This document shows, piece after piece, positions 4,819 through 49,384 of a DNA stretch of 64,000 nt; within the stretch, counting starts at the first letter, position 1; each line of letters begins with the position of its first letter. The position numbers and the translations under genes were made by a program. The stretch covers positions 1 to 64,000 of the forward strand of contig CALEZT010000009.1 of assembly GCA_937927975.1 (NCBI GenBank), read 5' to 3'. Source of the DNA: an uncultured Phycisphaerales bacterium. Lineage in GTDB: Bacteria > Planctomycetota > Phycisphaerae > Sedimentisphaerales > Anaerobacaceae. The notes beneath the pieces are model-generated. The model saw only the letters and a list, made by a program, of their open reading frames with translations, searched no databases and was not told the DNA's origin.

Positions 4819-6849
4819 TCACGGTTCGGCCGCCGGGGGCAGGCATTCACGCACCGCGCCGCCGAGGAGGTGCGGGAGGGTTTCTTCGAGTTCCATGGGC
4901 TCGGTCAGATCGCGGGCGATTTCCGTGAGGAAGCGGCTGGGCTTCATCATGATCAGGCTGCCGCCGCGGTTGCGGTAGACTTGCGGGACGACCAGGTACA
5001 CCTCGTCGCGGGCGCGCGTGACCGCGACGTGGAAGACGCGTCGTTCCTCTTCGAGGTCCTCGGGGTGATTCATGGCCATGTCGGTCGGGAACCGGCCGTC
5101 GGCCAGCCAGGGGATGAAGACGATCGGCCACTCCAGGCCCTTGGCCTGATGGACGGTGCTCAGGATCACGAACTCCTGCTCGACCGGGCCCTCGACGCAG
5201 GTTTCGCCCGAGAACTCGCCCGCCAGGCAGACGTCCGCGAGGAAGGACTCGACGTTCTTGTACTGGCCCGCGAAGTTGGCCAGGGCCTTGATGTCCTCGC
5301 GGCGCATCGCGGCGTTGTCGTAGTGCGAGACCATGTAGTCGTCGTAGAAGCGCTTGTTCGCCAGGTCGATGATCTCCGCGGGCGAATCGATCTCGCGAGA
5401 CTCCTTGAGCAGGTTGACGAACTCCTTGAAGAACGGCTGCGCGCTGGTCGGCAGGAGGCTGGCGGTCTCGATGCCAAGGACCTCGTTGAAGGGGTCCGCG
5501 GCGCTGCTGATGTGCTGCCAGACGCGTCGCGAGATCGCGCTGCCCACGCGGGGCAGCATCTTGAGCAGCCGCAGCCAGGCCAGCTCGTCGTGCGGGTTCT
5601 GCGTGACGCGGAGGTAGCACAGAACGTCCTTCATGTGCGCCTGCTCGAAGAACCGCAGGCCGCCGCGGATGTGGAACGGGATGTTGCGGCGCTGGAATTC
5701 GAGCTGGATCTCCAGCGAGTGCCAGTGGCTGCGGTAGAGGACCGCGATGTCGTTGAGCGTGCGGCCCTGGTCCAGGAGGTGCAGCACGTACTCCGCGATG
5801 AACCGCGACTGCGTGAAGTGGTCCTGGCAGGCGACGATCGCGGGCTTGAGACCCGGGGAGCGGATCGCCTTGAGGTTCTTCGGCAACCGACGGCTGTTCT
5901 GCGCGATGCTGGCGTTGGCCAGCGTCAGGATCTCCGGCACGGACCGGTAGTTCGTCTCGAGCTTGTACTCCCTCGCCTCGGGATAGCGCTGGCGGAACGT
6001 GATGATGTTCTCGAAATTCGCCCCGCGGAAGCTGTAGATCGACTGCGAGTCGTCGCCGACGACGGTGAGATTGCGGTGCTTGGAGGCCAGCAGATCGACG
6101 ATCATGCCCTGGATCGCGTTGGTGTCCTGGTACTCGTCGACGAGGACGTGCAGGAACTGCCCGGCCAGCATTTCGCGGACGTCCGCGTGCTCCATCATCA
6201 GCCGTAGCCACGCGCTGAGCAGATCGTCGAAATCCAGAAGCTGTCTGGCCTGCTTTTTCTCCGTGTACAGCACGAGCACCTTCTCGATCCCCTCCTGCTC
6301 CTTGATGAACATGGGGAATCGCTTGCTGATGACCGCCTGCAGCGGTTCGAGCGTGTTCTGGAGGAAGCTCGAAATCGCGGCCAGGACGTTCTTCTGCGGA
6401 AACCGCCGCTCTTTGGTGTCGACGCCGGCTTCCTCGACGCATGTCGCCAGGAGATCCTTGGCGTCCTCCCGGTCGAGGATCGTGAAGTCGGGCGAAATCC
6501 CCAGACGCTTTCCGTGGATTCGCAGGATGCGGTTGGCGATGTGGTGGAAGGTGCCGCCCCAGATGTCCTTGGTCTTCTGCTTGACCAGCAGTTCGGCGCG
6601 GTTGAGCATCTCGCGGGCCGCCCGGTTCGTGAAGGTGACCAGCATGATCCGGCCGGGATCGACGCCGTGATGGACCAGCCAGGCCAGCCGATAAGTCAGG
6701 GCGCGGGTCTTGCCGCTTCCGGCCCCGGCGACGACGAGCATCGGACCGCCCGGCGCGGTCGCCACCGCCAACTGCTCCGGGTTCAGGTCCGCCCCGAAAT
6801 CGATATCCCCCGCCGCGGTTCGCGACTGGAGCGTGAATTTTCGTGCCAT
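4819..6849 (-). CDS. UvrD/Rep/PcrA-family ATP-dependent DNA helicase
   Basis: A 676-residue superfamily 1A 3'-5' helicase. Visible motifs are the Q-motif region LNPEQLAVA (22-30), Walker A AGAGSGKT (41-48), Ia VTFTNRAAREM, Walker B VDEYQD (237-242), III GDDSQSIYSFRGA (265-277), IV ETNYRS, V STVHQAKGLEW and VI EERRVFHVAVTRARD. It would unwind DNA in repair or replication restart; which paralogue (uvrD, pcrA or rep) cannot be told from sequence alone, so no symbol is given. It starts 11 bases after the greA stop codon, so the two genes are probably cotranscribed. The C-terminal tail is short and lacks the UvrD-type RNAP-binding Tudor domain as far as I can see. Confidence 0.93.
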   Translation of the reverse strand: MARKFTLQSRTAAGDIDFGADLNPEQLAVATAPGGPMLVVAGAGSGKTRALTYRLAWLVHHGVDPGRIMLVTFTNRAAREMLNRAELLVKQKTKDIWGGTFHHIANRILRIHGKRLGISPDFTILDREDAKDLLATCVEEAGVDTKERRFPQKNVLAAISSFLQNTLEPLQAVISKRFPMFIKEQEGIEKVLVLYTEKKQARQLLDFDDLLSAWLRLMMEHADVREMLAGQFLHVLVDEYQDTNAIQGMIVDLLASKHRNLTVVGDDSQSIYSFRGANFENIITFRQRYPEAREYKLETNYRSVPEILTLANASIAQNSRRLPKNLKAIRSPGLKPAIVACQDHFTQSRFIAEYVLHLLDQGRTLNDIAVLYRSHWHSLEIQLEFQRRNIPFHIRGGLRFFEQAHMKDVLCYLRVTQNPHDELAWLRLLKMLPRVGSAISRRVWQHISSAADPFNEVLGIETASLLPTSAQPFFKEFVNLLKESREIDSPAEIIDLANKRFYDDYMVSHYDNAAMRREDIKALANFAGQYKNVESFLADVCLAGEFSGETCVEGPVEQEFVILSTVHQAKGLEWPIVFIPWLADGRFPTDMAMNHPEDLEEERRVFHVAVTRARDEVYLVVPQVYRNRGGSLIMMKPSRFLTEIARDLTEPMELEETLPHLLGGAVRECLPPAAEP

Positions 6850-41234: not shown

Positions 41235-41310
41235 GGTGCGAAACGCGAAGTGGGAAGTTTGAAGTGTGAAGTGCGGCGGCGCCGCTGGAAGCTCGAGACT
41301 CGTGGCAAGA
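41235..41310 (+). repeat. Text-like degenerate repeat stretch
   Basis: The gap after the regulator gene carries AAGTGGGAAGTTTGAAGTGTG and GAGACTCGTGGCAAGAG, made of shuffled GAAGT and GACTCGTGGC words. The same kind of words occur at 3408-3440. No gene is evident in it. Confidence 0.4.
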
Positions 41311-41321
41311 GAGGAGAAACC

Positions 41322-42830
41322 ATGAACGCAAGACGGAATCGCGTGAGAAGATGGGCCGAGAATCCGACCTGTCCGGACGGCAACGGCCTGGTTGGCAGCG
41401 ACAAGCGGAGTCTTCGGAGCTTGCCGATGGCTCGTCCCGAGTCGCGAGAAAGACCATCGACACACTGCGTTTGTCGATGCCACCCCCAAGCGAATTCGGA
41501 CTGTTCATCGAAGACCCCGGGTTCGAGGGAATCGGCCGGTTCCACGTTCATCTCATACGCTCGAAGAGCGTTGGCGTGCACGCTGTTGTTGTGTCTTTTG
41601 ATCGGCGGGTCTGCGACTGCCGCCTTTCGGGCGGGCTTTGCCCTGCGGGACGTGACTCCCGATCCGCTGCTGCCCGTCTCCGGCGGCGTCGGCCCATCTC
41701 ACCCGGTAACGCGAACGATCGGGCGATTGACTGCCCGCGCAATGGTCCTGGAAAACGACGGCACACGAGTGGCGATCTGCAGCGTGGACTTTCTCGGTTT
41801 CCCCGGCGTCCTGTGCGATAAGGTCCGTGCCCAGGTCCCGAGCATTCCCGGGACGAACATCCTGATCGGCGCCACGCACACGCACAGCGCGCCCGACTGT
41901 TACGGTTTCCCAGATCAGACGGGCAGGACCTCCGCCAACCTGGCGTATCTCGACAGCGTCTGCGCCAAGCTGGCGGACGCGATCAATGAAGCCGTGGAGC
42001 GTTTGGAGCCGGCTGGCGTGAAGATCGCAACCGGCCAGGCCCGAGGCAAGATCGCGTACAACTACTATGCCGAGCAGCTCTACGACCCGCGATGCCACGT
42101 CGTCCAGCTCGTCACCGCCGCGGGCAAGCCACTCGCGACCCTCGTCAACTACGCCTGTCACCCCGAGGTGATCGGGTCCGACCAGGGCATCCTGTGCACT
42201 GATTTCGTCGGGCCTCTGTACGACCGGATCGAGCAGCAAGGCGCCGGGCAAGGGATCTTCCTGAACAGCGCCCAGGGCGGCATGGTCACCGCCGATTGCC
42301 GCGGCCCGTACGGCAAGGACATCCAGACCTGGGACGAATGTGTCCGAATCGGCAACCTCCTGGCCGACGAAGCCCTTCGCATCGTTAACAGCGCCGCGGT
42401 CCAGGAGAACCCCACGCTCTTCTGCGGTGCGACCGCCATTGAGTTCCCCGTCGAGAACGAGATGCTGCTAACCGTGGTGAAGATGTCGCCCCTGGGATTC
42501 CAGTTGAGCGACAAAGGGACCGTGGCGACGCAGGTCAACGTCGTCAACCTGGGCAACGCCCAGATGCTCACCATCCCCGGCGAAGCCCAGCCCAACATCG
42601 GCTTCTACCTCAAGCGAAAGATGCAGGGCGAGCACAATCTGCTCCTTGGCCTGACCAACGACGCCTTCGGCTACATGCTCGCCAAGGTCGATTGGAGCAG
42701 CTTCGAACGATACAACTACATCACGCGAACCTGCCTGGGTGAAATGACAGGCGAGATCTTCATGGAAAAGGCTTTGGAGTTCGTCGACGCCTGCCCCCGG
42801 CCCGCCCGACGGGCGACAGAACAGAGATGA
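41322..42830 (+). CDS. Exported neutral/alkaline ceramidase-like protein
   Basis: The core from about 41637 onward reads FRAGFALRDVTPDPLLPVSG, then ATHTHSAPD (histidines expected to bind zinc), VNYACHPEVIG and LTNDAFGYMLAKVDW, as in the neutral ceramidase superfamily. Planctomycete members are numerous and probably hydrolyse other amides or esters; ceramide itself is not assumed. A signal-like stretch (ALACTLLLCLLIGGSATAA) lies immediately before the core but some 85 residues into the frame. The ATG at 41322 has a strong GAGAGGAG site, which would give 502 residues with an odd, Arg-rich leader. A TTG at 41571 directly before the signal peptide is the alternative start. The neighbour upstream is the PAS-AraC regulator. 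Confidence 0.8.
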   Translation: MNARRNRVRRWAENPTCPDGNGLVGSDKRSLRSLPMARPESRERPSTHCVCRCHPQANSDCSSKTPGSRESAGSTFISYARRALACTLLLCLLIGGSATAAFRAGFALRDVTPDPLLPVSGGVGPSHPVTRTIGRLTARAMVLENDGTRVAICSVDFLGFPGVLCDKVRAQVPSIPGTNILIGATHTHSAPDCYGFPDQTGRTSANLAYLDSVCAKLADAINEAVERLEPAGVKIATGQARGKIAYNYYAEQLYDPRCHVVQLVTAAGKPLATLVNYACHPEVIGSDQGILCTDFVGPLYDRIEQQGAGQGIFLNSAQGGMVTADCRGPYGKDIQTWDECVRIGNLLADEALRIVNSAAVQENPTLFCGATAIEFPVENEMLLTVVKMSPLGFQLSDKGTVATQVNVVNLGNAQMLTIPGEAQPNIGFYLKRKMQGEHNLLLGLTNDAFGYMLAKVDWSSFERYNYITRTCLGEMTGEIFMEKALEFVDACPRPARRATEQR

Positions 42831-42865: not shown

Positions 42866-44368
42866 TTACCAGAGTTGTTGCTGGTCCACCTCGTCTCGCG
42901 ACGGTTTCCGTTTGCGCGAAGACTTCATGACCTCTGTGATGTGGAAGGCGCCCTGGGGACAAGCGCCCTTCGGGCACTGACCCGTCCAACAGTAGAGACA
43001 GAGCTTGTGCCTGGGCAGGCCAATTGCACCGACCATGTCATCCACGGTCTGGTAACGAAGCGTCGTGACGCCCAGGTCTTTGGCGATCCAGTCGACCATT
43101 TGGTCGTATTTCTCTGACGCGGGATCGATGTACTGCGATACGTCCGCCAGGTCGTGGCCTTCGAGACTCCGAATCGCCTTGTGCGCCGCCAGTTCGTGGA
43201 TCGAGCGGGTGGACAGATTGAACATGCAGGGGAACAACAGGGGCGGACACGCCGGCCGGACGTGAATCTCCTTGGCCCCGCAGCTCCAGAGCTTGGCGAT
43301 CGCGAAGTTCTTCAACTGCGTCCCGCGGACGATGGAGTCCTCGCAGACCACGATGCGGTTGCCGTCGATCACTTCCTTGATCGGGATGAGCTTCATCCTG
43401 GCGATCAGGTCGCGTGTCTGCTGCGAGGGCGGTGTGTAGCTCCGGCCGTATCCGGGCGTGTACTTGACCAAGGGCCTGCGGAACGGGATTCCGGACTCCA
43501 TCGCATAGCCCAGGCCGTGGGAGAGCCCGGAATCAGGAACGCCTGCCACGAGATCGGCCTGGATGTCGCGGTCGCGTCGGGCCAGACAGCGTCCGCACCG
43601 TTCGCGGACGATCTCCGCGTTGATGCCTTCATAGCTTGAAGCGGGAAAGCCCGTGTAGATCCAGAGGAAGGTGCAGATCTGTTGCGTTCGGCCCCGGCCG
43701 GGCCTTCGCTGCATGATCCCGTCTTCGTTCAGAAGGACGATTTCGCCGGGCTCCATGTACTTGGCTATCTCGAAACCCAGATTGGCAAAGGCGCAGGTCT
43801 CTGTGGTGACGGCCCAGCCGCGAGGCCCCTTGCCCGCGATCAGGGGCATGTACCCGAAGCGGTCTCGCGCCGCATAGATCCCGGCCCGATGCAACAGCAG
43901 AAGGGAACAAGATCCCTCGATCAGGTCGAAGACCCTTTCGATGCCGTCGACCAGATCCGTCCCCTGCGTGATGAGCTTCGCGATCAGCTCCGTGGTGTTG
44001 ACGCCGCGGGGGCTGACCTCGCTGAAGGACATCCCCTTCTTGAGCATCTCGTCCGCGAGTGTCTCGGCGTTCTCGACGACGCCGCTGGTGGCCAGGCAGA
44101 ACGGTCCGAACCGCGAGTTCAGATAGATGGGCTGCTCGTCGAGGGCGCTGACGACGCCGATGCCCTTGTTGCCCTGCATGCGGTGGAGGTCCTGGAAGAA
44201 CTTCGACTTGAACTGACTCTGGCGGAGGTCGTGAATCTGGCGGGCAAACCCCTCCCCCAGAACCGCCATGCCTCCATATTCGGTGCCGAGGTGGGAGTGG
44301 TAATCCGTTCCGTAGAACAGGAGTTCCGCGCAATTGTCTCTCGATACGACGCCGAAGATGCCGCTCAT
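42866..44368 (-). CDS. PurF-like protein with degenerate glutaminase domain (amidophosphoribosyltransferase paralogue)
   Basis: A 500-residue protein with PurF architecture: N-terminal Ntn glutamine amidotransferase domain, then a phosphoribosyltransferase domain with the PRPP loop VCEDSIVRGT (341-350). The glutaminase site is gone. The nucleophile Cys after Met is Ser (MSGIFGVV); the H-V-R-Y-x-T motif reads GVVSALD (71-77); the oxyanion N-G reads TSG (94-96); and the T-S-D-S-E region reads NTTELIA. The tail holds C457, C460, C465 and C470 (CLYCWTGQCPKGAC), possibly a zinc or iron-sulfur site. It could use free ammonia or another amine, or bind nucleotide only. It is the last gene of an operon with a DapA-like aldolase and an epimerase. 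True purF may lie elsewhere. Confidence 0.8.
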   Translation of the reverse strand: MSGIFGVVSRDNCAELLFYGTDYHSHLGTEYGGMAVLGEGFARQIHDLRQSQFKSKFFQDLHRMQGNKGIGVVSALDEQPIYLNSRFGPFCLATSGVVENAETLADEMLKKGMSFSEVSPRGVNTTELIAKLITQGTDLVDGIERVFDLIEGSCSLLLLHRAGIYAARDRFGYMPLIAGKGPRGWAVTTETCAFANLGFEIAKYMEPGEIVLLNEDGIMQRRPGRGRTQQICTFLWIYTGFPASSYEGINAEIVRERCGRCLARRDRDIQADLVAGVPDSGLSHGLGYAMESGIPFRRPLVKYTPGYGRSYTPPSQQTRDLIARMKLIPIKEVIDGNRIVVCEDSIVRGTQLKNFAIAKLWSCGAKEIHVRPACPPLLFPCMFNLSTRSIHELAAHKAIRSLEGHDLADVSQYIDPASEKYDQMVDWIAKDLGVTTLRYQTVDDMVGAIGLPRHKLCLYCWTGQCPKGACPQGAFHITEVMKSSRKRKPSRDEVDQQQLW

Positions 44369-44479
44369 GCTCAGACCCCTTACGCTGTGTCTGTGGTCAT
44401 ACGAGCGCCGGGCCGTCACGCCCTGACGCACCAGGACGACTCCTATCCAGGATACCCCGGTCGAGCCGGGAATTCAAAC

Positions 44480-45547
44480 CTATGCCCCCAGCCATTCGTC
44501 GAGGTTGGCTGCGACGAAGTCGTCGTCCGTCAGATGTGGGTACAGGCGGACGATCGCGTCGATTTGCTCGATCTGGCCGGGACTGAGTCGCTCGGTCGGG
44601 TCGAGGACGCCGCTGTGCTGAAGCAGACCCTGGCGTTTCAGGACGTGAGAGATGCCGGGGATGCAACCCGCGAAGGCGTTGTCGGCGTCGAAGATCGCCT
44701 TGTTGGCGAGGGTCATCTGCGAGGCCAGGGTCAGAAGATCCATCGGGACCGGGCCGCGCGTTCGGCGGATGTCCTTGATCGCAGCCAAATGCTCGACCGC
44801 GCGCTTCGTCCAGCAGGCCCACTGGCCCAGCAAGCCGCCGACGGTGTGCAGCGGAACCTCGCCCTCGCGAGTGCGGAAGGTGAACCGCGTCAGCAGATCG
44901 ACTAGGATGTTGTCGTCGTTGCCGGTGTAGAGGGCGATGCGATCCGCCCGGCCGGACTGGGCCACCGCCTCCAGAACGTCGAGCGTCTGGTAGCGGTTGA
45001 ATGGCGCGATCTTGATCCCGCGGACGTTCGGAATCTCCACGAACCGGGACCAGAACTCCTTGGGCAGGGTCATTCCGCTGATCGTGCTCTGCAGATAGAA
45101 ACCCATGATCGGAATCACTTCGGCGACCTGCCTGGCGTGCTCGATCAGGTCATCGACCGATTTGTTACGCAGGGCGGTCAGCGAGAGCAGACCCAGATGG
45201 TAGCCCAGATCGGCCGCGAGCTTTGCCTCGCGGACAGCCTGGGCGGTATTGCCCACGATTCCTGCGATCAGAATCGGCGGCTCGATCTTACGCGAGGTCA
45301 CGGCCTCCTCGGCGGTCGAGACCGCCAGTTCGAGCACAGGCTGGTACAGGTTCACCTTCGCCTCGTGAATCGCGAACTGCGTCGTGTGAACGCCGACGGC
45401 CAGCCCCCCTGCCCCCGCAGCCAGATAGTAGCGAGTGAGGGCCTTCTGACGCCGCTCGTCCAGCTTGTTCTCGCCCGTCAATGCCAGCGGGTGGGCAGGG
45501 ATCACGCAACCTTCCCATAGCTTCTCGAAAATGCTCGGCCCGATCAT
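44480..45547 (-). CDS. Dihydrodipicolinate synthase/N-acetylneuraminate lyase-family aldolase
   Basis: A 355-residue TIM-barrel protein of the DapA superfamily. The N-terminus is FEKLWEGCVIPAHPLALT, with GAGGLAVGVHTTQF corresponding to the G-x-x-G-L substrate loop. The likely Schiff-base lysine is in NVRGIKIAPF, and the tyrosine of the proton relay in MGFYLQSTISG. It is about 60 residues longer than DapA at the C-terminus and departs from the usual substrate loops, so it probably acts on another 2-keto acid such as a keto-deoxy sugar acid. ATG at 45547 has GAGAGGA ahead. It is 11 bases after the epimerase stop and 111 bases before the PurF-like start, so the three are likely one operon. Confidence 0.87.
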   Translation of the reverse strand: MIGPSIFEKLWEGCVIPAHPLALTGENKLDERRQKALTRYYLAAGAGGLAVGVHTTQFAIHEAKVNLYQPVLELAVSTAEEAVTSRKIEPPILIAGIVGNTAQAVREAKLAADLGYHLGLLSLTALRNKSVDDLIEHARQVAEVIPIMGFYLQSTISGMTLPKEFWSRFVEIPNVRGIKIAPFNRYQTLDVLEAVAQSGRADRIALYTGNDDNILVDLLTRFTFRTREGEVPLHTVGGLLGQWACWTKRAVEHLAAIKDIRRTRGPVPMDLLTLASQMTLANKAIFDADNAFAGCIPGISHVLKRQGLLQHSGVLDPTERLSPGQIEQIDAIVRLYPHLTDDDFVAANLDEWLGA

Positions 45548-45558
45548 CGCGAATCCTC

Positions 45559-46581
45559 TCAAAAGCGGCCGTCACGGACGTTGTACTTCGTGGGCTTGTT
45601 CAGCACGGGCTTGCCGGCGGCCACCCATACCACGACGGCCTGAACCATCTCGTCGAGCTTCATCGCAGGCGGGCCGAATTGTGCGACGCATTTCGAGGCG
45701 TTCGAGAGCAGAGCGGTCGGCGCTTCCTGCGAAGTGAAGCACGGCTCCTTGCCCAGCAACCGGCCGATCCGCTGCGCCAGGTCGCGGACGCTGAGCGTCT
45801 CGGGGCCGGTGACATTCAGGATCGCCGCCGGCGTTTCGGCCAGGCCCAAGGCTCGAACGATGCAGTTGTTCGCATCGCCCTGCCAGATCAGATTGACCGA
45901 CCCCATGGTCACATCGATCGGTTCGCAGTGGAGTATCTTGATCGTTAGATCGACGAGGATGCCGTATCGGGGCTCGTTGGCGTAATTGAGGCGGATCAGC
46001 GTCATGGGCGTTCCGAAACGGCCGGAGAAGTACTGAAAGATCCGCTCGCGGGCCAGGCACGATTGGGCGTATTCCCCGACTGGCGTTGGAACGTCCGACT
46101 CGGTCGCCCCGCCGCTTGCCGGATCGACGAACGGGTACACGTTGCCGGTCGAGAGGGCCACGACACGCGAGCGGCAGTACCGCTTGGAGACGAGCGAGGG
46201 CACGTAGGCGTTCATTGCCCAGGTCAGCGGCTGATTGCCCGATGCGCCAAACTTCATCCCGGCCAGGAACAGGACATTCTGCGTTTCCGGCAGGCCTGCG
46301 TAGACAGACTCGTCGAGCAGGTCGGCCTCGACAATCTCGATACCTTGCTCCGCGATCCGCTCGCGAAGGGCCCTGTCCCCAAAGCGAGAGACCGCATAGA
46401 CGGCTTTCTGCGGGGCCGCCTTCTTGACCATCATTGCCAGGGTGGGGCCCATCTTGCCGCCGGCCCCGAGAACCGCGACGTCCCCCGGCGTCTCGGCGAG
46501 CAGTTGGCGTGTGGCGGGGACCGGCTCGCTGAGCCAGTCCTCCAATCCGCGTTCGTCGAGTTGCGATGCGTCGATCATCAT
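45559..46581 (-). CDS. NAD(P)-dependent epimerase/dehydratase-like (extended SDR) protein, catalytic Lys replaced
   Basis: A 340-residue extended SDR-type protein. The cofactor motif is VAVLGAGGKMGPTL, and the Ser/Thr of the active site is in ALSTGNVYPF. The Y-x-x-x-K motif reads YAQSC (in GEYAQSCLARERIF), so the usual lysine is a cysteine. The NYANEPRYGILVDLTIKI segment is typical of NAD-sugar epimerases. Without the lysine, hydride chemistry would be weak or depend on other residues; the family relatives that share YAQSC-like sequences are not, to my knowledge, characterised. It is the first gene of the operon with the DapA-like aldolase and PurF-like protein. The start is the ATG at 46581, with GGGAGA before it. 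Confidence 0.85.
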   Translation of the reverse strand: MMIDASQLDERGLEDWLSEPVPATRQLLAETPGDVAVLGAGGKMGPTLAMMVKKAAPQKAVYAVSRFGDRALRERIAEQGIEIVEADLLDESVYAGLPETQNVLFLAGMKFGASGNQPLTWAMNAYVPSLVSKRYCRSRVVALSTGNVYPFVDPASGGATESDVPTPVGEYAQSCLARERIFQYFSGRFGTPMTLIRLNYANEPRYGILVDLTIKILHCEPIDVTMGSVNLIWQGDANNCIVRALGLAETPAAILNVTGPETLSVRDLAQRIGRLLGKEPCFTSQEAPTALLSNASKCVAQFGPPAMKLDEMVQAVVVWVAAGKPVLNKPTKYNVRDGRF

Positions 46582-46731: not shown

Positions 46732-48045
46732 ATGGCGCTCACGACCGTCCCGCCGATCCCGGCCATCATCCTACTGCTCGCGTCTGCCTCGTGGTCTGCG
46801 GTCGCGACGCCGGACTTCTCGCCCAAACCTCAGGAACGCCAGTTGTCCAAAGCGATGCGATCCGAGATGACCGAACTGCCCTGCGTCACCGTGGGCAGGA
46901 GCAACGCCGACTTCACCGGCCAGGACAATCGCATCCTCCAGGCGGCAGTGGACTACGTCGCCCATCTCGGCGGCGGCATCGTTGAAGTCGGCGAAGGCGA
47001 GTACCTCATGCGCGACTCCCTGCACCTTCGTTCGAATGTGACCGTACGCGGGGTCAAAGGCAGGACCATCCTGCGAAAAGCCGACAGTTCCCTTTCGGCC
47101 CTGGCCCTCGACGGCGACTTCGGCGAGGAACAGATCACCGTGGTCGATCCGAATGGATTTGCAGTCGGTTGCGGCGTGGCGATCTGGGACAAAGGGGCCG
47201 GCGGCTTCCACACGACGGTCGCCCGCATCATCGGCCGAAACGGCAACACCTTCGCCATCGACAAGCCCCTGATGGCCGACTGCATGGTGCACAACGAGGG
47301 CCAAGCCGCCACGGTCTTCCCGGTCGTCAGTGGCTATGACATCGAAGGCGTGCGGATCGAGAACCTCGTCATCGACGGCAGCAAGGAGGCGAACATCCCG
47401 CTCAACGGCTGTCGCGGCGGCGGCATCTTCCTCTATCGGGCTTTCGGCACAATCATCACGGGCTGTCTCGTGCGGAACTACAACGGCGACGGCATCAGCT
47501 TCCAGCAGTCCAACGACGTCACCGTTGAAGACTGCGTGTCGGAGGACAACGCGGCCCTGGGCCTTCATCCGGGCAGCGGCTCCCAGCGACCGACGATTCG
47601 TCGCTGCGTCGCCCGCCGCAACGGCACGGACGGACTGTTCCTCTGCTGGCGGGTCCGCCACGGCCTCTTCGAGGATAATCTCCTGGAGGAGAATGGGCAG
47701 TTCGGCATCTCCATCGGCCACAAGGACTCCGACAACCTGTTCCGCCGCAACACGTCCCGTCAGAACAAGCAGAGCGGCCTGTTCTTCCGGAACGAAACCC
47801 TGGGCATGGCCCCCCACCGTAACCGCTTCGAGAGGAACATCATCGAGGACAATGGCGGCCCCGAGATCCGCGTCCGTGGCGAGGTCAACGATCTGACGTT
47901 CGTCAGGAATACGATCCGGGACGCGAGGGAAGAATCGTCCGTCGGAATTCTGATCGAGGAGCGAGTCGGACCTGTGCACTTGGAAAATAACACGATCCAG
48001 ACGAAGCAGCAAATTGACGACAAGCGGACATCGGGCCGCAATTGA
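46732..48045 (+). CDS. Exported right-handed parallel beta-helix protein
   Basis: A 437-residue secreted protein (signal about 1-25, PAIILLLASASWSAVA). It has a polysaccharide-lyase/hydrolase-type beta-helix opening (NRILQAAVDYVAHLGGGIVEVGEGEYLM). Repeating helix turns follow, such as VRIENLVIDGS, TIITGCLVRNYNGDGISFQ, VTVEDCVSEDNAALGLHPG, RHGLFEDNLLEENGQFGISIG and NLFRRNTSRQNKQSGLFFRN. Pectate-lyase-3-like proteins and glycan epimerases share this fold; no catalytic signature can be named with confidence. A GGAGGT site lies seven bases before the ATG. The next gene, an exported oxidoreductase, follows by 10 bases, so they are cotranscribed. Confidence 0.85.
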   Translation: MALTTVPPIPAIILLLASASWSAVATPDFSPKPQERQLSKAMRSEMTELPCVTVGRSNADFTGQDNRILQAAVDYVAHLGGGIVEVGEGEYLMRDSLHLRSNVTVRGVKGRTILRKADSSLSALALDGDFGEEQITVVDPNGFAVGCGVAIWDKGAGGFHTTVARIIGRNGNTFAIDKPLMADCMVHNEGQAATVFPVVSGYDIEGVRIENLVIDGSKEANIPLNGCRGGGIFLYRAFGTIITGCLVRNYNGDGISFQQSNDVTVEDCVSEDNAALGLHPGSGSQRPTIRRCVARRNGTDGLFLCWRVRHGLFEDNLLEENGQFGISIGHKDSDNLFRRNTSRQNKQSGLFFRNETLGMAPHRNRFERNIIEDNGGPEIRVRGEVNDLTFVRNTIRDAREESSVGILIEERVGPVHLENNTIQTKQQIDDKRTSGRN

Positions 48046-48055
48046 GGAGAAGAAC

Positions 48056-49384
48056 ATGGGATCGGTCAATCGCAGAACGTTCTTGAAGGGATCGTTGGGC
48101 ACGGCGGCTATGGTCGCGGCGCTGCCGCCCAGGCAGAGCCGGGCCGCCGGGGAGAAGGTCATCATCGGCCTGATGGGCGCCGGCGGTCGCGGCAGGCAGG
48201 TGGCCCAGATGTTCGCCGCTCGCCCCGACGTCGAAATCGCCTGGATTTGCGACCCCGACACCAGGCGTCTGGGGCCTGCGAAGCAGGCTGTCGAAAAGGC
48301 CCAGGGCAAAGCCCCACAAACGGCGCAGGACTTTCGCCGGATTATCGACGACAAGAGCGTCGACGCCATGATCAATGCGACGCCTGACCACTGGCACGCG
48401 CTAGGCACGATTCTCGCCTGCCAGGCGGGCAAGGACGTCTACGTCGAAAAGCCGCTGGCCCACAACGTCTGGGAGGGCCGCAAGATGATCGAGGCCGCCC
48501 GCAAGTACAAGCGGGTCGTCCAGGTCGGCATGCAGACGCGAAGCGCGCCCTATGCCCGCGAGGCGGTCGAGCAGATCCAAAGCGGCAAGCTGGGCGATGT
48601 CCACATGATCCGAGTCTTCAACATGATGGAGCACACGCCGCGAAAGCCGGGGACGGTGCAGCCGGTGCCGGAGGGATTCGACTACGATCTCTGGTGCGGA
48701 CCGGCGCCCAAGCTACCGTACAACCCGAGCCAATGGTGGCTCAATCAGTGGGAGTTCAGTTGCGGCCCAATCGCGGGCGATGCGATCCACCAACTGGACT
48801 TCGCGCGCATGCTCTTCGGCGACAAGTCCTATCCCGACGCGATCTCCCACACCGGCGGCGTCAAGGCCCTTCGCGACGGGCGCACGATCCCGGACACGCA
48901 GATCGCCCTCTACGAGTATGGCGACTTCACGCTGGTTTTCGAGGCCGCCCTTTGGACCCCCTACATGAAAAAGATCGCCACGAACATCCGCGATGGCGAC
49001 CTGTTCCCCGATTGGCCATTCTGCGCCACACGGATCGAAGTGCTCGGGACCAGAGGCTTCATGTACCTGGGCCGTCACGGCGGCGGCTGGCAGATCTTCG
49101 ACGCCGACGGCAAGGCAATCGAGTCCCGCTACGGCCGCCAGGGCGACAGGTGGCACCAGGACAACTTCATCGAGTGCATCCGCACGCGAGCCAAACCCAA
49201 CGCCGACGTGGAACAAGGCCACTATTCCGCCCTGCTGTGCCACATGGCCAACATCTCAGGCCTCGTCGGCAATCAGAAGCTCCGTCTCGATCCGAAGACC
49301 GAGACCTTCGTTGATGCTCCGGACGCCACCAAACGCCTGAAACGGACCTATCGTGAGCCTTGGGTGATCCCCGACGAAATTTAG
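48056..49384 (+). CDS. Tat-exported Gfo/Idh/MocA-family oxidoreductase
   Basis: A 442-residue protein beginning MGSVNRRTFLKGSLGTAAMV (Tat signal). The cofactor motif is IIGLMGAGGRGRQV, the family lysine lies in YVEKPLAHN, and the substrate-side segment is FDYDLWCGPAPKLPYNPSQWW. The C-terminus ends KRLKRTYREPWVIPDEI, again the planctomycete subfamily pattern. Together with the beta-helix gene 10 bases upstream it probably handles products of a secreted lyase or hydrolase. The GAGGAGAAGAAC stretch upstream of the ATG at 48056 supports the start. It converges on the next oxidoreductase gene. Confidence 0.92.
   Translation: MGSVNRRTFLKGSLGTAAMVAALPPRQSRAAGEKVIIGLMGAGGRGRQVAQMFAARPDVEIAWICDPDTRRLGPAKQAVEKAQGKAPQTAQDFRRIIDDKSVDAMINATPDHWHALGTILACQAGKDVYVEKPLAHNVWEGRKMIEAARKYKRVVQVGMQTRSAPYAREAVEQIQSGKLGDVHMIRVFNMMEHTPRKPGTVQPVPEGFDYDLWCGPAPKLPYNPSQWWLNQWEFSCGPIAGDAIHQLDFARMLFGDKSYPDAISHTGGVKALRDGRTIPDTQIALYEYGDFTLVFEAALWTPYMKKIATNIRDGDLFPDWPFCATRIEVLGTRGFMYLGRHGGGWQIFDADGKAIESRYGRQGDRWHQDNFIECIRTRAKPNADVEQGHYSALLCHMANISGLVGNQKLRLDPKTETFVDAPDATKRLKRTYREPWVIPDEI

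Follow-up and report, generated by a model that had tools for sequence, protein, structure and literature searches.

The 64,000-nucleotide stretch of contig CALEZT010000009.1 analysed here (the window) carries, in the region from 42,866 to 46,581, a PurF-like gene (42866..44368, minus strand) whose 500-residue product (MSGIFGVVSRDN...) is a Cys-less paralogue of the amidophosphoribosyltransferase PurF. Alignment, predicted fold and phylogeny show that this protein is a member of a distinct PurF-derived family, in which the known glutaminase catalytic residues are absent while the core residues for phosphoribosyl pyrophosphate (PRPP) are kept. Genome searches and gene neighbourhood tie the family to the making of purine and pyrimidine precursors, and show that it usually accompanies a canonical PurF in the same genome. 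Tentatively, and with the reading as a whole put at somewhat less than even, we take the protein to be a PRPP transferase that works in nucleotide synthesis without glutamine, and the pair of genes beside it to be an unrelated cassette.

Relationship to PurF and predicted fold

By sequence, the nearest solved structures are PurF of Bacillus subtilis and other PurFs, and the protein matches Pfam GATase_7. It scores 205.3 bits against TIGR01134, below the 350-bit cut-off for membership by full-length score, and its relatives score about 162-206 bits. A scan of reference genomes gave 589 PurF-like loci, of which the best 80 were used; an alignment of 63 of these, four listed proteins and 12 canonical PurFs produced an AlphaFold2 model with a predicted local distance difference test score (pLDDT) of 88.8 and a predicted template modelling score of 0.87. 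An earlier model, made from close relatives only, had a pLDDT of 48.5. The top fold matches are PurF structures (1gph, 1ao0 and 6lbp), and the model has the two-domain arrangement of an N-terminal nucleophile domain joined to a phosphoribosyltransferase (PRTase) domain.

Loss of the glutaminase residues

For a residue census in E. coli PurF numbering, 106 family rows were reduced to 96 distinct members, and 30 canonical rows to 27, by removing near-identical sequences; locus L035 was omitted and L031 entered without its start, and the functional roles of the E. coli residues are those that we take them to have. The window protein begins MSGIFG, and Ser2 (44363..44365; this and all further features of the gene lie on the minus strand) stands where PurF has its nucleophile Cys1. 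Leu27 replaces R26, Ser95 replaces N101, Pro120 falls in the D127 column, and R73, Y74 and T76 are deleted, so that the N-terminal Cys nucleophile, R26, R73, Y74 and D127 of PurF are all missing. A previous reading of this DNA from its sequence alone (the sequence-only reading) had claimed that the nucleophile Cys had become Ser and that the HVRY Arg, the oxyanion Asn and the D-S-E region were lost, and the observation is confirmed.

The same losses run through the family. At the nucleophile position the 96 members have Gly (53), Ser (40), Asp (1) or Val (1), with one unplaced, and Cys occurs in none of the 95 that could be placed; all 240 matches listed in two homologue searches have Ser or Gly after Met. 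The R26 column is Leu or Met in all 96. The glutamine-loop residues of canonical PurF (R and Y in 27/27, T in 26/27) fall in a gap in 96/96 family members, the site of the deletion lying between residues 73 and 74 of the window protein (44147..44152). The N101 column has Val in 59 and Asn in 15, with other residues in the remainder, and the D127 column is mixed, with Asp in 10/96, the window protein not among them. Since both the loop deletion and the R26 change are present in every member, they are real features of the protein rather than an assembly slip, an error of the kind that the sequence-only reading had named as one that would refute it.

What replaces these residues is itself conserved. 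Where canonical PurF has L-Q-H-R-G-Q, the family has a motif that reads T21-D-Y-H-S-H-L-G-T29 in the window protein (44282..44308), with T21, H24, S25, L27 and T29 each present in 92 of 96 members and D22 and Y23 in all; H26 and G28 are common to the family and canonical PurF. The N-terminal half as a whole has 20 near-invariant positions not shared with canonical PurF, among them the greater part of the T21-T29 run. The ratio of N-domain to PRTase-domain identity is 0.869 in the family, close to the 0.898 of canonical PurF, and the N-terminal half is therefore not simply decaying. A decaying pseudogene was rejected on the strength of this ratio and of the columns that remain near-invariant across phyla.

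The PRPP half

The PRPP loop, C342-E-D-S-I-V-R-G-T-Q351 (43316..43345), is intact, as the sequence-only reading had said, and the census agrees with its broader view of a PurF paralogue that would lack glutaminase chemistry while keeping this loop. Equivalents of D367, S368 and R371 are present in 94/96 members and those of G372 and T373 in 93/96, the remainder being gaps. The PRPP flexible loop spans residues 302-326 (K302, R309 and K326; 43391..43465); the equivalents of R332 and K349 are kept in 95/96, again with gaps making up the remainder, and Y258 in 96/96, so that the family retains both the PRPP loop and the flexible-loop Arg and Lys. Model confidence dips to pLDDT 66 and 71 at residues 301-320, within the flexible loop. 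One family member of 592 residues (P0154) contains part of the PRPP half twice in tandem; the duplication may be real or may have arisen in assembly.

Four cysteines are also conserved, in a census of 81 family rows that counted gaps as misses and included L031, L035 and L042 without a scored start: Cys232 (43673..43675) in 80/81, Cys381 (43226..43228) in 78/81 with two gaps, and the pair C457-L-Y-C460 (42989..43000) in 78/81 and 77/81 respectively, with three gaps each. They align with cysteines of canonical PurF that we take to be the iron-sulphur ligands of the B. subtilis enzyme.

Phylogeny and distribution

The family is large. A search with the window protein gave at least 7,999 candidates with E <= 0.001, and the 120 homologues listed, 74-89% identical, without exception show Met-Ser in the start motif; with a Bacteroidales member as query at least 8,000 sequences were scored, and among the 120 listed the residue after Met was Ser in 113 and Gly in 7. 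The best 80 of the 589 reference loci come from Planctomycetota, Omnitrophota, Elusimicrobia, Lokiarchaeia, Aminicenantes, Acidobacteria, Spirochaetes, Lentisphaerae, Bacteroidetes, Desulfobacterales, Chloroflexi and others, according to record labels, some of which may be misbinned.

In a maximum-likelihood tree of the 96 family members and 27 canonical PurFs, made by a quick search with support from the SH-like approximate likelihood ratio test only and with 43 of 120 inner branches weak, a single branch with support of 100 splits the canonical PurFs from the family. Within the family, Gly and Ser exchange at the nucleophile position seven times on the best tree, and at least three of these changes are forced by well-supported branches. 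The separate 'Ser-type' PurF branch suggested by the sequence-only reading is therefore not supported; and because a nucleophile would not swap so freely with glycine, Ser is not a replacement nucleophile. This interchange, together with the universal absence of the glutamine loop, led us to reject Ser as the nucleophile.

Coexistence with canonical PurF

We sampled 120 genomes from the class of a Sedimentisphaerales relative and found the PurF-like family in 20, with a canonical-type PurF alongside in 19 of the 20 (by identity, counted by eye). In four of these genomes (G069, G075, G081 and G111) the two genes share a contig and are no more than about 500 bases apart, and in another (G132) the distance is about 3 kb. 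That the PurF-like protein should as a rule be the sole PurF was rejected on this evidence. A canonical PurF above the TIGR01134 cut-off was present in 13/16 genomes of one set and 7/12 of a second, which makes 20 of 27 distinct genomes (G002 being in both); these genomes were hand-picked, some are also in the class sample, and G027 and G002 entered the second set because no canonical PurF had been seen in them. Below the cut-off were a PurF at 315.6 bits (G011), a long form (G001 and G139) and an 85-bit piece (G138). Profile searches detected no canonical PurF in the carriers G002, G027 and G137, genomes of unstated completeness; purM exceeds its own cut-off in G027 and G137 and gives a weaker match in G002. 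Among the class genomes, a canonical-type PurF went undetected in one of 20 carriers (G027) and in 6 of the 100 others (Fisher p = 1), and hence there is no excess of its absence among carriers. The separate canonical purF for which the sequence-only reading recommended a search is usually found, in relatives of the source genome.

Gene neighbourhood

Neighbouring genes were surveyed at 95 loci, comprising the best 80 and 15 carriers from the class sample (G035, which is in two fragments, was omitted, and four carriers were already included). At 32/95 loci the PurF-like gene has one or more purine or carbamoyl-phosphate genes no farther than 3 kb away, and in 26 of these 32 at least one such neighbour is on the same strand. 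The genes concerned are purF (13), carB (12), purM (7), purQ (4), purL (4), guaA (3), purD (2), purB (1) and purE (1). Of 17 E. coli control genes, not one turned up within 3 kb at the 95 loci, and one was found within 6 kb; since the controls were not chosen for equal detectability, and purine genes tend to lie together in any case, this contrast is indicative rather than exact. Gene orders include purL-purQ-purF-family-purM (L013), purF-purM-family (L003) and carA-carB-family (L008). No purine or carbamoyl-phosphate neighbour was recognised among the genes adjoining the PurF-like gene in the window.

The order carB-DUF1846-family recurs at four loci (L012, L019, L020 and L057), and DUF1846 lies within 3 kb at six of the 95 (these four, L021 and L040). 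DUF1846/UPF0371 (PF08903; structures 3bh1 and 7f00) is a different protein, and is linked to the PurF-like gene as a genetic partner. In what is, to judge by the genome labels, the same class sample, it occurs in 9/120 genomes, 8 of the 20 PurF-like carriers versus 1 of the 100 others (Fisher p = 1.2e-6, uncorrected for kinship). It was also found in 13 of 23 further carrier genomes, mostly from other phyla by their locus labels, and as the other 10 are without it the link is not obligatory. At L017 an apparently cut-off DUF1846 copy stands at the contig end. Positions 5017-6645 of that locus, upstream of both carB and the PurF-like gene, encode what reads like a hybrid-cluster protein; an ammonia-producing enzyme at this place would fit with the use of ammonia considered below.

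The epimerase-aldolase cassette

The PurF-like gene of the window follows two others on the minus strand: an extended short-chain dehydrogenase/reductase (SDR) or epimerase-like gene (45559..46578; PF01370) and a DapA/KdgD-type aldolase gene (44480..45547; PF00701), the intergenic gaps being 11 and 111 bases. The sequence-only reading gave this same arrangement, with which coordinates and domain match agree, and proposed from it a pathway in which the three proteins together join PRPP or a nucleotide with a keto-sugar acid. The wider comparison speaks strongly against that proposal. In 198 genomes of the class, searched at E <= 1e-40, relatives of the aldolase occur in 26 and relatives of the SDR in 36, and in 23 of the 26 aldolase genomes the SDR match sits immediately upstream, in the same orientation and no more than 200 bases away (by eye; the exceptions are G061, G109 and G125). 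The PurF-like protein is present in 3 of 12 aldolase genomes searched (G203, G033 and G127), on another contig each time, and G203 has the closest aldolase and SDR of the sample. Conversely, the 95 PurF-like loci, which differ in their flanks, contain no match to either cassette gene at E <= 1e-15. The SDR and the DapA-type aldolase are thus a conserved two-gene cassette in the sampled class, separate from the PurF-like gene. Because the pair is adjacent in 23/26 genomes, the PurF-like gene lies on another contig in each of the three aldolase genomes that have it, and the 95 loci lack any cassette match, the layout in the window is most likely a chance neighbourhood. Co-transcription of cassette and PurF-like gene may occur in this one genome. 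The same strand and the short gaps are what can be said for a joint pathway, to which we attach very little probability.

The aldolase has the residues of the DapA/NAL type, its relatives keeping the Schiff-base Lys179 in 21/21 and Tyr151 in 20/21, and since both are retained it looks active. The epimerase-like protein, whose nearest solved relatives are TerB and MoeE5, has Y170-A-Q-S-C174 in place of the YxxxK of classical extended SDRs. The sequence-only reading was right about these letters, less so in treating the Lys as lost from this protein: among the SDR relatives, the window's included, Tyr and Ser are present in 21/21 and the Lys position is Cys in 19 and Val in 2, so that Y-x-x-S-C/V is the rule throughout the sampled subfamily.

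Facing the cassette is a gene for a parallel beta-helix-like protein (46732-48045, plus strand), followed by a Gfo/Idh-like oxidoreductase gene (48014-49384); both are read from sequence, and they suggest a carbohydrate-use neighbourhood around the cassette. On the other side, an open reading frame at 41250-42830 (plus strand), directed toward the PurF-like gene, presumably resembles the neutral ceramidase-type hydrolases. Scans of the window found three terminators against 3.0 expected, a single promoter-like site on the plus strand, one tRNA (Rfam) and no PADLOC match.

Relation to known systems

Canonical PurF (EC 2.4.2.14; 1gph and 1ao0 from B. subtilis, 1ecf and 1ecb from E. coli) has the Cys nucleophile, the glutamine loop and R26, and the family differs in having none of the three, in mostly lacking N101 and D127, in its TDYHSHLGT motif and in its separate branch. 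There may be a likeness to PRTase-fold purine regulators such as PurR of B. subtilis, which is not known to be catalytic: they too combine a PRPP-binding fold with a link to purine genes. A difference is that the PurF-like family keeps the flexible-loop Arg and Lys.

A further parallel is in Crenarchaeota, where the portion of Brown et al. (2011) consulted here describes Cys-less PurF' proteins near purF and purine genes, and suggests, as one option, that they aminate PRPP with ammonia (PMC3261824). As there described, PurF' resembles our family in being a Cys-less second PurF, but often has Ala or Val at the Cys position, where the family has Gly or Ser and occurs in other taxa (PMC3261824). 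Set against that description, the family is a Cys-less paralogue found with PurF in most genomes searched and with purine or carbamoyl-phosphate neighbours at the 32 loci noted above, although none was recognised in the window. No report on the family itself was found in the open-licence literature, in agreement with the sequence-only reading's remark that no function had been described; the remark goes too far in so far as the Crenarchaeal proteins have been discussed (PMC3261824, in the portion consulted). A Cys-less PurF beside purF is therefore already known, in print for Crenarchaeota, and the present data show a comparable pattern across many phyla in one large family, to which they add the missing glutamine loop and the partners carB and DUF1846.

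Proposed function

Given the residue census, glutamine chemistry of the known kind is unavailable to the family and the core residues for PRPP binding and transfer are kept. We propose that PRPP would be aminated to 5-phosphoribosylamine with ammonia, either free or supplied by a partner, giving a supply of phosphoribosylamine independent of glutamine, and that the remodelled N-terminal half might function as a gate for ammonia or as a domain that binds an effector. E. coli PurF Cys1 mutants retain activity with ammonia (cited in the consulted portion of Brown et al. 2011; PMC3261824). Several observations weigh against this proposal. Y329 is replaced in the family by Thr (58) or Gly (37), and T374 by Gln; 63 of 95 loci have no purine or carbamoyl-phosphate neighbour within 3 kb; and phosphoribosylamine synthesis does not account for the links to carB and DUF1846. 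Moreover, if ammonia alone were used the glutaminase half might be expected to decay, yet its identity ratio is close to that of canonical PurF and it has 20 family-specific near-invariant positions, a conservation that points to a further role in binding or regulation. An extended form of the proposal makes the family a second, glutamine-independent entry to nucleotide synthesis in many bacterial phyla and Asgard archaea, whose rebuilt glutaminase half would gate or sense another nitrogen source or ligand, and which, with DUF1846 and carbamoyl-phosphate synthetase, would use PRPP and ammonia to keep purine flux in balance with pyrimidine flux; taken entire, we think this rather unlikely.

Because the N-terminal half has a new and conserved surface, the alternative that the protein is a sensor has to be taken seriously. 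The protein would then bind PRPP and a second, N-terminal ligand and tune PurF or carbamoyl-phosphate synthetase without catalysis, for which the 25 of 95 loci with purF or carB within 3 kb, the new motif in a conserved N-terminal half, the replacement of Y329 and the partnership with DUF1846 all argue. A pure binder may not need a PRPP loop and flexible-loop Arg and Lys conserved as in the enzyme, however, and the family is found alongside two very different forms of PurF; we consider a regulator of this kind doubtful. The same 20 N-terminal residues could instead reflect a rebuilt site for an acceptor other than ammonia (D22, H24, E117, N124 and N196 are candidates for it), and a nucleotide-linked product would be compatible with carB and purine contexts alike; but apart from DUF1846 the neighbours are common genes of purine and carbamoyl-phosphate synthesis, no new biosynthetic cluster being recognised among them, and a phosphoribosyltransferase of that sort is distinctly unlikely. 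Least credible is a glutamine amidotransferase working with Ser or the backbone amine as its N-terminal nucleophile. Methionine aminopeptidase would, as a matter of general knowledge, expose the termini of Met-Ser and Met-Gly proteins, but the repeated exchange of Gly and Ser, the missing glutamine loop and an N101 kept in so few members tell against it, as does the loss of glutamine use when Cys1 of E. coli PurF is changed to Ser (cited by Brown et al., in the portion consulted; PMC3261824).

Since the family has lost the residues for taking nitrogen from glutamine, and its genomes usually have a canonical PurF as well, its database name is probably wrong. Most of the 240 matches listed are unnamed and those with a name are all labelled amidophosphoribosyltransferase, and metabolic reconstructions may therefore count as glutamine-using an enzyme to which the known mechanism for this is not available. 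Should the family prove to carry out a first step that is regulatory or driven by ammonia, it would represent an added control point in a textbook pathway, and would provide a functional setting for DUF1846, which is listed as essential in C. difficile in the section of PMC12548448 consulted here.

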